Shown here: piece after piece, positions 42,846 to 45,895 of the stretch | How positions within the stretch are numbered: the first letter of the stretch is position 1 | Layout: every line of letters starts with the position of its first letter | Position numbers and translations under genes: made by a program | Notes under the pieces: generated by a model | The model's input: the letters and a program-made list of their open reading frames with translations, nothing else | Told to the model about the DNA's origin: nothing | The model's database searches: none | NCBI RefSeq assembly: GCF_000069185.1 | Contig: NC_010397.1 | Span: 3,224,001 to 3,288,000, forward strand | Length of the DNA: 64,000 bases | Direction of reading: 5' to 3' | Origin: Mycobacteroides abscessus ATCC 19977 | GTDB lineage: Bacteria; Actinomycetota; Actinomycetes; Mycobacteriales; Mycobacteriaceae

Positions 42846-45032
42846 ATGAGCCGCACGCCCGAAAACAGTCCGACGACGGTCGACAACCTGCAAGCCCTGT
42901 CGGTCACCGATCTCCTGGCGGCCCGCGACCTCTATCACCACCACCTCACCAACAAACCCAACGTGGTAGGGACGGCTATCGGTCGCTATCTGATTCGTGA
43001 GCAACCCGGCGGCGCGCGCACACTCGTCAATTCGCGGGTGGAGCAGGGATTTTCCTGGCCATGCGTCATGGTCTTCATCAGCGACTGGGCGGCGCCCAAG
43101 TCGCTGACCCCGTACGACTATGTGCCCAAGCAACTGTTCATGCCCGACGGGCGCGTGGTCCCGGTGTGCAAGGTGCAAGTGGATCCGGCGCCCGTGTCCA
43201 CCACCACCCCGCGGCACCCGGCCCCGGCGCGCTGGCCCACCACACTGCTGGGCGGCGGCCTGCCCGTCGTCGTCGATGTCCAGAACCAGTCGCACACCGC
43301 GACCGCGGGCTGCCTGGTCTCCGACGGCCACTCGCTGTACGCACTGACCAACCGGCACGTGTGCGGGCCCGCGGGGCAAGAGATCGACATGGTGCGAGGT
43401 CTGGCCCGCTCCCGGATCGGCGTATCCAGCGGACAACAGCTCACCAGGCTGCCTTTCGGCGAGGTGTACCCCTTCTCGATGACGAACACCTACCTCACGC
43501 TGGACATCGGACTCGTCGACGTCGATGACGCTGGGGACTGGACCTCTACCGCCTACGGCATCGGCGATATCGGCCCGATGGTCGACACCGGCGACATGAC
43601 CAACGGGCTGGATTTGATCGGCCAGCCCGTGGTGGCACATGGCGCAAGCTCCGGCCTGGTGGGGGGCAAGGTCATGGCGCTGTTCTATCGATACAAGTCG
43701 GTGGGCGGTTCGGAGTATGTGTCGGACTTTCTCATCGCCCCGGATCCACAAGGGCCACAAACGGTTCCCGGCGACTCCGGGATGGTCTGGCACCTCACCG
43801 AGAACCGTGCGCGACCCGCGCCGCTGGCCGTGGAATGGGGTGGGCAGGCCTTTCTGGACGACGCCACCCGGTGCACGCTGAATTTTGCGCTCGCAACGAG
43901 CCTGAGCACGGTGTGCAATCTCCTCGACGTGGAACCTGTCGTCGGGCAACAAGATGGCGCCCAGCCGTTTTGGGGACAGACCGGGCACTACAGCATTGCA
44001 ACCTTCACTCTCGATGCCATCCGCTCACCGAATCTGAAGACGCTGATGCAGGCCAATCTGGACGCCATCAGCTTCTCGCTGTCCGAGTTGGACCCCAAAT
44101 CCATCGCCCAGCGCCTCAAGGAGGCCCGCAGCAACCCGGACGGCATCATTCCGCTGGCCGACGTGCCGGATCTGGTCTGGAAGAACCTGCCAAACAAGGT
44201 GGTGGGCGGCCGCGACGATCACATGGTCGGATATCGCTCACAGGGCCCCGAGCACCCATGCCACTACGCCGATATCGACGAACCCGGGCCCGACGGCTCG
44301 ATCGTGCGAGACCTGTGTCTGCAGGACATCGCCAATCTCACGGTGACCAAATGGCAGCAGTTCTACGACGAGCGCGGACACCGCACGCCGGACAAACGCG
44401 GCCTGCTGCCATTCCGGGTGTGGCAGTTCTACGACGCGATGGTTGGCTTCGCCAAAAGTAGGCAGGTCGACCAGTTCGTTTGTGCGGCGGGTCTATTGGC
44501 GCACTACGTGGGCGACGCCTCGCAACCGCTGCACGGCAGTTACCTGGCAGACGGATATCCGGACGGAACGGGAGCCGGTGTCCACTCGTGCTACGAGTCA
44601 AAGATGATCGACCGATACGCCCGGCAGTTGGTGGCCGCCATACCGGCGGACCTCGCCACGCTGGGCGATCTGGAGCTGATAGACGATGGCCAGCACGCGG
44701 CACTGGCGACCGTCGAACTCATGGACCGATCGGCCCAGCGGTTGCCGCCGACTCAGCTGGTGGACGCCTTCGTGGCGTTGGGAGGCAAACCCGTGGTCGC
44801 AACCCAAGACGGGTTGTGGTCCCGGTTTGGTGAGCAAACGGGGCTCCTGATGGCCGACAGCGCCCGCACACTTGCCATGATCTGGGATAGCGCATGGGCA
44901 GCCGGCAGTGGGGACAAGATCAAAAAGTCTGCGCTGCAAGCTATTCCACATGATCGACTGCGAGAGCTGTATCAACAGCGGCAGTTCGTGGAATCGCTGG
45001 ACCTGGATCATGTGGAAACCGCCCTGCGCTAG
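42846..45032 (+). CDS. trypsin-like protease fused to S1/P1-type zinc nuclease
   Basis: A 728-residue protein without a signal peptide. Residues 1-125 are a soluble N-terminal region of unknown function. Residues ~130-360 are a trypsin-like serine protease: His171 (TNRHVCG), Asp220 (LDIGLV), Ser311 (PGDSGM). Residues 376-728 are an S1/P1 nuclease domain with the full zinc set: Trp376 and His381 (WGQTGH), Asp439 (LADVPD), His473 (CHYADID), His553/Asp557/His563 (AHYVGDASQPLHG), His580 and Glu584 (VHSCYE). In S1/P1 enzymes the Trp is the processed N-terminus and its amino group binds zinc; here it is internal, so cleavage before Trp376 should be needed for activity. The start is ATG at 42846; the frame opens at 42759. 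Its stop touches the dacB2-like gene. Confidence 0.88.
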   Translation: MSRTPENSPTTVDNLQALSVTDLLAARDLYHHHLTNKPNVVGTAIGRYLIREQPGGARTLVNSRVEQGFSWPCVMVFISDWAAPKSLTPYDYVPKQLFMPDGRVVPVCKVQVDPAPVSTTTPRHPAPARWPTTLLGGGLPVVVDVQNQSHTATAGCLVSDGHSLYALTNRHVCGPAGQEIDMVRGLARSRIGVSSGQQLTRLPFGEVYPFSMTNTYLTLDIGLVDVDDAGDWTSTAYGIGDIGPMVDTGDMTNGLDLIGQPVVAHGASSGLVGGKVMALFYRYKSVGGSEYVSDFLIAPDPQGPQTVPGDSGMVWHLTENRARPAPLAVEWGGQAFLDDATRCTLNFALATSLSTVCNLLDVEPVVGQQDGAQPFWGQTGHYSIATFTLDAIRSPNLKTLMQANLDAISFSLSELDPKSIAQRLKEARSNPDGIIPLADVPDLVWKNLPNKVVGGRDDHMVGYRSQGPEHPCHYADIDEPGPDGSIVRDLCLQDIANLTVTKWQQFYDERGHRTPDKRGLLPFRVWQFYDAMVGFAKSRQVDQFVCAAGLLAHYVGDASQPLHGSYLADGYPDGTGAGVHSCYESKMIDRYARQLVAAIPADLATLGDLELIDDGQHAALATVELMDRSAQRLPPTQLVDAFVALGGKPVVATQDGLWSRFGEQTGLLMADSARTLAMIWDSAWAAGSGDKIKKSALQAIPHDRLRELYQQRQFVESLDLDHVETALR

Positions 45033-45043
45033 TGTCGGATCCG

Positions 45044-45895
45044 ATGTCCACTCTGCGAATCCGTGCCCTGGCGGTGCTCAGCGTCCTGTTCTTGTCCACA
45101 CTCCCTGTCGGCGTCGCCCGTGCGGACATGGCTGCCCCGCCGCCCGAGGGACCCGCGCAGGCCTGGTTGGTGGCAGATCTGGACTCGGGCCAGATCCTGG
45201 CCGCCCGCGACCCCTACGCGACCCACGCCCCCGCCAGCACCATCAAGGTGCTGCTGGCACTGGTCGCGCTCGATGAGGTGCCGATGGACGCCACGGTGGT
45301 GGCCGACGCCGCGGACGCGAAGGCCGAATGTAACTGTGTAGGCATCAAGGCGGGACAGACCTACACCGCGCGGGAGCTGCTGGACGCCGCGCTGTTGGAG
45401 TCCGGCAACGACGCGGCCAACACCCTGGCCCATCTGCTCGGCGGGCGGCAAGCCACCGTCGACAAGATGAACGCCAAGGCCGCTGCCTTGGGCGCCACCT
45501 CCACGCACACCGATTCGCCGTCCGGCCTGGACGCACCCGGCATGGACATGCGCACCAGCCCTCACGACTTGGCGGTCATCTTCCGGGCCGCGCTGGCCAA
45601 TCCGGTGTTCGCCGAGATCACCGCCCAGCCGAGCGCGCCGTTCCCCGGGCGCGGATTGCACAATCAGAATGAGCTGATGTACCGCTATCCCGGCGTGATC
45701 GGCGGCAAGACGGGCTTCACCGATATCGCCCGCAAGACATATGTCGTGGCCGCCGAGCGCGACGGCAAGCGCCTGGTGGTGTCGATGATGTACGGCCTGG
45801 TACATGAGGGGGGCCCGACGTACTGGGATCAGGCCGCCAGCCTGTTCGACTGGGGCTTTGTCAATGACGGTTCGAGCAGTGTCGGTTCGCTCTAG
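45044..45895 (+). CDS. dacB2: D-alanyl-D-alanine carboxypeptidase (DacB2-like)
   Basis: A ~283-residue exported penicillin-binding protein trimming D-Ala from peptidoglycan stem peptides. After a signal peptide come the catalytic motifs SxxK (ASTIKVLLA), SxN (LESGNDAANTL) and KTG (GGKTGFTD). The sequence follows M. tuberculosis Rv2911 closely, including the AECNCVG segment and the GGPTYWDQAASLFDWGF end. A GTG at 45032, overlapping the upstream stop by one base (TAGTG), is an alternative start; the ATG gives the better signal peptide. Confidence 0.94.
   Translation: MSTLRIRALAVLSVLFLSTLPVGVARADMAAPPPEGPAQAWLVADLDSGQILAARDPYATHAPASTIKVLLALVALDEVPMDATVVADAADAKAECNCVGIKAGQTYTARELLDAALLESGNDAANTLAHLLGGRQATVDKMNAKAAALGATSTHTDSPSGLDAPGMDMRTSPHDLAVIFRAALANPVFAEITAQPSAPFPGRGLHNQNELMYRYPGVIGGKTGFTDIARKTYVVAAERDGKRLVVSMMYGLVHEGGPTYWDQAASLFDWGFVNDGSSSVGSL

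Follow-up and report, generated by a model that had tools for sequence, protein, structure and literature searches.

Bacterial immunity makes use of nucleases that are activated by trypsin-like proteases (PMC12799240, in excerpt). In the gated nuclease-protease pairs of Hachiman, Avs1, Lamassu and DRT (Science 2025), a latent nuclease becomes active when a trypsin-like protease cuts it at a specific site; in the excerpted text the protease is joined to a defence enzyme, while the nuclease has a metallo-beta-lactamase (MBL) fold, is always encoded by a separate gene and is blocked by cleavable insertions, and the authors expect further classes of proteolytically activated enzymes. The phospholipase C (PLC) proenzyme of Listeria monocytogenes, PC-PLC, is exported and carries a 26-residue propeptide that is cut by a separate metalloprotease, Mpl (PMC10576769, in excerpt). 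Its pro-form is inactive, and a single residue added before W1 abolishes activity (cited within the same source); the main-chain atoms of W1 bind the metal and its side chain is anchored in the cleft. Here we describe a gene from Mycobacteroides abscessus ATCC 19977, located in a 64,000-nucleotide stretch (NC_010397.1, positions 3,224,001 to 3,288,000; hereafter the window, in whose numbering all coordinates are given), that encodes a predicted serine protease and a predicted zinc hydrolase in one chain. We propose, with a probability of about one half, that the product is a latent cytoplasmic two-enzyme effector in which a self-made cut before Trp376 would switch on the zinc hydrolase.

S1/P1 nucleases are exported enzymes. 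Members of this family (PF02265; S1, P1, SmNuc1, plant endonuclease 2) have the fold, the WGxxGH start and the His/Asp ligand pattern of the second half of the window protein, but they have no fused protease and carry Asp where the window family has Glu584, and the window protein does not reach the Pfam cut-off. Listeria PC-PLC also shares the fold of the second half (PMC10576769, in excerpt); the window protein, however, showed no sign of an export signal and has an entire protease domain in place of the propeptide. In contrast to the gated pairs, with their separately encoded MBL nuclease, the window protein is one chain with an S1/P1-PLC fold, and the proposed cut would create a metal ligand. 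LypC of Caulobacter crescentus likewise joins an N-terminal trypsin-like protease to a C-terminal nuclease in a single chain, although its nuclease is, by the excerpted account, of the EndA/NucA type with dispensable nuclease residues and acts with LypA and LypB (PMC13236601); the two proteins are alike by description. LypA/LypB-type genes, the partners in a CARD-NLR/LypC-like system, were not conspicuous among the 25 best-ranked neighbour families of our loci, and the second half of the window protein matches S1/P1-PLC structures.

A protease that unlocks a latent nuclease in phage defence, with the MBL nuclease coming from a separate gene, is therefore already known (published 2025; PMC12799240, in excerpt), and a PADLOC model covers the present family. 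The remark in a preliminary description of this DNA that no such system was known needs qualifying in this light. We found no description of a protease and an S1/P1-PLC enzyme in one chain in the open-licence papers, which were surveyed mostly by listing. What sets the window protein apart is the nuclease fold, the single chain and the predicted activation chemistry.

Two enzyme domains in one chain

The fusion gene lies on the + strand at 42846..45032, with an ATG at 42846, 728 codons and a TAG stop at 45030-45032, and it matched its own genome at 100% (contig G000:C2). The frame and the codons for His171, Asp220, Ser311 and Trp376 were confirmed as first described. A scan of genome contigs identified 39 related loci, 32 of which were taken, together with the window protein, into the alignment A4 (33 sequences: 31 fusions and two zinc-only proteins). 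Four partial loci (L016, L025, L036 and L041), one with a run of N (L017), one damaged (L021) and one with a frame break (L022) were left out. Between the window gene and that of M. franklinii, dN and dS were 0.028 and 0.634 for the protease; in the zinc half they were 0.055 and 0.600. Across three Mycobacteroides copies dN/dS was ~0.04-0.07 for the protease and ~0.08-0.10 for the zinc half. Both halves are under purifying selection.

The protease half (about residues 14-370, 42885..43955, +) has a complete His-Asp-Ser triad in a chymotrypsin fold, and the codons of His171 (43356..43358), Asp220 (43503..43505) and Ser311 in a GDSG motif (43776..43778), all on the + strand, were each kept in 31/31 fusions of A4. 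We compared this half with the families PF25608/PF25819. The Nal1_C model scored 48 bits against a curated cut-off of 26.1 (E 1.3e-12) and matched 24 of the 33 A4 members at E <= 0.01, while NAL1_N scored 15.4 bits, under its cut-off of 27. By its sequence the domain is thus of the NAL1 type, and the earlier label of a trypsin-like protease was only loosely right; proteolytic activity is predicted. The bacterial protease half (42885-43955) aligned with most of the solved chain of NAL1, the plant leaf-shape protease, and the evolutionary link between plant NAL1 and its bacterial relatives would seem to merit separate study. A stand-alone 372-residue NAL1-like protease (L069:769-1887) was seen in a Beijerinckia genome that also has a fusion, so the protease also occurs without a zinc domain.

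The second half (about residues 376-695, 43971..44930, +) has the S1/P1 nuclease/zinc PLC fold. Nine residues, which we take to be metal ligands by homology, were each present in 33/33 members of A4: Trp376, His381, Asp442, His473, His553, Asp557, His563, His580 and Glu584 (predicted ligand span 43971..44597, +). Asp439, the alternative to Asp442, was kept in 32/33. Metal binding by this half is predicted. PLCs carry Glu as the last metal ligand. The corresponding residue of the family is Glu584 in all 33 members, as against Asp in the solved nucleases that were aligned, so that the domain has the fold of the S1/P1 nucleases together with the last ligand of the zinc-dependent PLCs. The window protein scored under the curated Pfam cut-offs for both classes (S1-P1, PF02265, 15.6 bits against 29.5; Zn_dep_PLPC, PF00882, 13.9 bits against 26.8), and matches at E <= 0.01 were found in 26/33 A4 members for S1-P1 (best 1.4e-7) and in 19/33 for Zn_dep_PLPC. 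A search of solved structures with the family profile at E up to 0.1 returned S1/P1 nucleases only, with plant endonuclease 2 at E 7.3e-6; a search with the second half as a single sequence returned phospholipases C only, all weak (E 0.14-0.31). The initial S1/P1-type assignment stands for fold and motif and fails on the Pfam scores and the last ligand. We favour a nuclease over a phospholipase as the likely activity.

The preliminary description had raised the possibility of two separate genes joined by sequencing error. Copies of the fusion that are split or have a broken frame do occur (L116/L117 in genome G1131, L003 and L006 on plasmids, and L022) and suggest repeated decay or sequencing errors. 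However, the 31 aligned intact fusions span several phyla, with a single pair at least 95% alike, and both halves are under purifying selection. That the window gene arose from two ordinary genes by a sequencing error or a one-off fusion is hence so improbable that we rejected it; the whole-length fusion recurs in other genomes and cannot be put down to chance or to assembly.

The domain junction and a proposed activation by metal-ligand creation

The codon of Trp376 (43971..43973, +) specifies the counterpart of mature residue 1 of the S1/P1 nucleases and PC-PLC, and Trp was found there in 33/33 members. The pattern W[GAS]xxGH occurs only once in the 728 residues, at residue 376. In structure alignments, model residue 376 lay opposite residue 1 of P1 nuclease (1ak0), Bacillus cereus PLC (1ah7), Listeria PC-PLC (8cqm) and plant endonuclease 2 (4cxo), and this start also held in alignment rows with the low-confidence stretches left untrimmed. 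Weak profile alignments likewise placed family position 1 opposite the first residue, a Trp, of solved nuclease chains. Homology to the exported enzymes thus starts exactly where those enzymes have the residue that binds metal through its amino group, and the placement of Trp376 at the domain junction was borne out. The junction Trp and the protease Ser, whose conservation had been named as decisive for the zymogen idea, were both kept in 31/31 full-length fusions of A4 and in 6/6 further mycobacterial copies.

Trp376 is preceded by a spacer of 13 residues (363-375; 43932..43970, +), and the proposed cut would fall after Phe375. The distance from Val362 to Trp376 was 13 residues in 29 of the 31 fusions and 14 in the other two, so that what had been called a Gln/Asp-rich linker is so in the local sequence but is, across the family, a spacer of nearly fixed length. 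Residues 368-376 had a predicted local distance difference test score (pLDDT) under 50 in the model; given this low local confidence, the spacer is possibly exposed. A single-sequence fold prediction (pLDDT 34.8) was useless. As first reported, no signal peptide was seen: no 15-residue stretch close to the start rose above a Kyte-Doolittle mean of 0.9, a value obtained without a dedicated signal-peptide predictor, and the N terminus thus lacks the hydrophobic stretch of an S1/P1-type secretion signal.

Our proposal is as follows. In the intact chain Trp376 is internal; its alpha-amino group would be unavailable to the metal cluster, and the S1/P1-like hydrolase should consequently be off or nearly off. 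Upon a trigger, the NAL1-type protease would cut after residue 375, in cis or between the subunits of an oligomer; the new N-terminal Trp would fold into the zinc site and complete it; and the active hydrolase would attack nucleic acid or, less likely, phospholipid, with the result that the cell is harmed or arrested, or an invader destroyed. The latency of the intact protein is suggested by analogy, since the inactive pro-form of Listeria PC-PLC and the chemistry of its W1 lead one to expect the same of the fusion. The attached protease would be the natural candidate for the 375/376 cut. Several structure entries of rice NAL1 have six chains and others three, and cutting between subunits may therefore be possible. 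Of the latent-zymogen reading as first put forward, the two complete active sites, the boundary Trp and the Listeria precedent speak for it, while the zinc-only proteins and the P1 conservation considered next speak against it.

Points against self-activation and the alternatives

Several observations weigh against the proposed self-activation. Most important are two Leifsonia proteins (L039:7983-9089 and L040:7983-9089) that consist of the zinc domain alone: each has 368 residues and all the ligands, with Trp at position 18, so that 17 residues precede it, and a signal peptide was not seen. Neither Leifsonia genome gave a Nal1_C match, in a search that caught 10 of 11 fusion-bearing genomes and may thus miss a protease. 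PDLC03017, the PADLOC model for the family, matched these proteins in the zinc part only. Since the Leifsonia domain groups with the fusions (94/96; branch not starred, root not inferred), the protease was probably lost there and a domain with every ligand retained. Such a domain is either trimmed by another protease, or inactive, or tolerant of a mid-chain Trp. It is mainly because of these proteins that our confidence in the zymogen stays near one half. A further locus, L021, looks by eye to have a damaged protease (Tyr at the His position and an internal deletion) with the zinc half present. As a side observation, the Leifsonia ATG lies close behind a TANNNT-like box (by eye), a possible leaderless start.

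These proteins bear directly on the alternative that the zinc domain works uncut, with Trp376 serving as a ligand in mid-chain, for instance by its carbonyl, and the fusion merely coupling two hydrolases. No cutter was found for the stand-alone Leifsonia domains, and their 17-residue tail resembles the fusion spacer by eye. On the other hand, in the solved relatives that were aligned the match begins where the mature chain begins, and one added residue inactivates Listeria PC-PLC (PMC10576769, in excerpt); the Leifsonia proteins may also be inactive or processed by some other protease. We regard activity without a cut as rather improbable.

The proposed cleavage site is a further point against. 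The residue before Trp (P1) was Y in 17, F in 7, T in 6 and S in 1 of the 31 fusions, and its degree of conservation (44th percentile) is that of an average position; the spacer positions as a whole are conserved at about the average of the protein. On the protease tree the T/S and Y/F states at P1 called for 2 changes, as against 4 on that of the zinc domain. We rejected the P1 residue as proof of protease specificity because of its average conservation and because the tree signal is confounded by the linkage of spacer and protease. A junction cut by some other cellular or phage-triggered protease, with the attached protease acting elsewhere, would agree with a P1 residue that is not strictly conserved and with the Leifsonia domains that persist without a protease. 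Against this stand the triad intact in 31/31 fusions and the smaller number of P1 changes on the protease tree, which spacer-protease linkage explains equally well; we consider an outside protease quite unlikely.

A different function for the protease is suggested by LypC, whose protease serine was essential for lysis whereas its nuclease residues were dispensable and deletion of the nuclease domain destabilised the protein (PMC13236601, in excerpt). By this precedent, the protease of the fusion would be the working effector or regulator and would cut another protein, and the zinc domain would serve folding, targeting or a secondary activity instead of being the substrate. The nearest solved proteases, those of plant NAL1, have chains that do not exceed 586 residues and contain the matched part, so that a zinc hydrolase would hardly fit. 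Yet the invariance of the nine ligands in 33/33 members and the purifying selection on both halves would be unneeded for a mere targeting domain, and LypC, with its different type of nuclease, is likened to the fusion by description and not by sequence. We judge it unlikely that the zinc domain is such an accessory.

The neighbourhood adds a last point. Of 175 mechanically picked open reading frames (ORFs) from 31 loci, some of them probably in wrong frames, 117 from 26 loci were scanned, and no constant partner emerged: among the best 25 of 102 Pfam families none exceeded 3/117, and among the best 25 of 29 PADLOC families none exceeded 2/117. Behind the defence role first suggested for the fusion, the survey thus showed no constant defence neighbourhood.

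Defence models and neighbouring genes

PADLOC model PDLC03017 'trypsin-like' matched window residues 66-721 over model positions 60-605 of 611 (E 5.4e-43) and was found in 33/33 A4 members, including the two zinc-only ones, so that at the level of the model it is the same family as the window protein. The model has neither a description nor a system in the library, but its matches place the family among known or candidate defence proteins. Surveys for its parent system found 1/345, 1/321 and 2/337 genomes (centre genomes included) and gave no clue; the second match in the 337-genome survey was weak (E 6.3e-4, 53 model positions). Single neighbours matched the PADLOC models LmuA, LmuB, LmuC, dGTPase, PycC, SoFic, RtcR, PDC-S04, PDC-S24, mad8 and PDC-M43B. 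At L019 (Sphingomonas sp. PAMC 26605) an LmuB gene (L019:3638-7303) ends ~670 bases upstream of the fusion gene and is probably preceded by LmuA and LmuC of a Lamassu system, to judge from gene order and tallies, and an HD-domain dGTPase-like gene lies near the fusion at L027. Without a background rate, such single neighbours speak neither for linkage nor for its absence. A defence or self-destruct role of the fusion is plausible.

Downstream of the fusion gene in the window lies a gene (45032-45895, +) that we named by eye from its sequence as D-Ala-D-Ala carboxypeptidase-like. Its GTG shares one base with the fusion stop codon, and an alternative ATG lies 12 bases further. The gene was found directly 3' of the fusion in three Mycobacteroides (the window, M. 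franklinii L007 and CBMA 271 L008), and given this kept arrangement the two genes may be co-transcribed.

Distribution and history of the fusion

The aligned members came from Pseudomonadota, Acidobacteriota, Bacteroidota, Ignavibacteriota and other mycobacteria. Fusions of other Mycobacteroides were 87-91% identical to the window protein, and the other aligned members 36-51%. A genus scan added six further distinct intact mycobacterial copies (L108, L110-L114), and the triad, the ligands, the Trp and the 13-residue spacer were present in 6/6; L107 and L109 fall by match into the genomes of L007 and L008, L115 was identical to L037, and the split L116/L117 was not counted among them. A plasmid search gave four matches to the fusion family, all outside A4: the broken copies L003 and L006 and two intact ones, P0002 and P0003 (aligned in A1 and A2), with the same triad and ligands and, in P0003, Ser as the residue after Trp. 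Phages gave zero matches, and of 83 candidate stretches from viral contigs none was confirmed as a match; we rejected the idea that the fusion is phage cargo.

The gene is patchy, being found in 1/61 relatives and in 11/396 genus genomes (window genome and one split copy counted), and on the trees the carriers in the genus fall into two or more separate lineages. This patchiness and the separated lineages make horizontal transfer of the fusion gene likely. Recent acquisition as judged by base composition was rejected, since the gene (GC 0.641) is not unusual against the window (0.646). On the tree of the protease half Bacteroidota formed one clade (100/100), a clade that the zinc-domain data reject (approximately unbiased (AU) test, p 0.0028), whereas the zinc-domain grouping that holds L029 and L032 is rejected by the protease data (AU p 0.00016); the groups tested were picked after the trees had been seen, and the comparison includes long branches. 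At least one exchange of halves has perhaps taken place, which left the junction and the spacer as they were.

A more far-reaching version of the self-activation proposal takes the fusion for a one-gene, partner-free effector zymogen with the protease acting as propeptide. Instead of lifting a lid, the self-made cut would manufacture the alpha-amino ligand of Trp376 and thereby complete the zinc site of a nuclease or phospholipase in the cytoplasm. Several phyla would share the gene, on chromosomes as well as plasmids, as a mobile cassette for defence or self-destruction. We offer this version tentatively and hold it to be less probable than self-activation as such.

Implications

If the proposal is true, a single gene would encode both a proenzyme and its activator, and the enzyme would be switched on in the cytoplasm by the creation of a metal ligand. 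The proteolytic activation of immune nucleases, described for pairs of separate genes, would then also take place within one chain and with an unrelated nuclease fold, and bacterial relatives of plant NAL1 would gain a concrete substrate. It would also suggest how an enzyme of the S1/P1-PLC kind, usually exported, can stay inside the cell.
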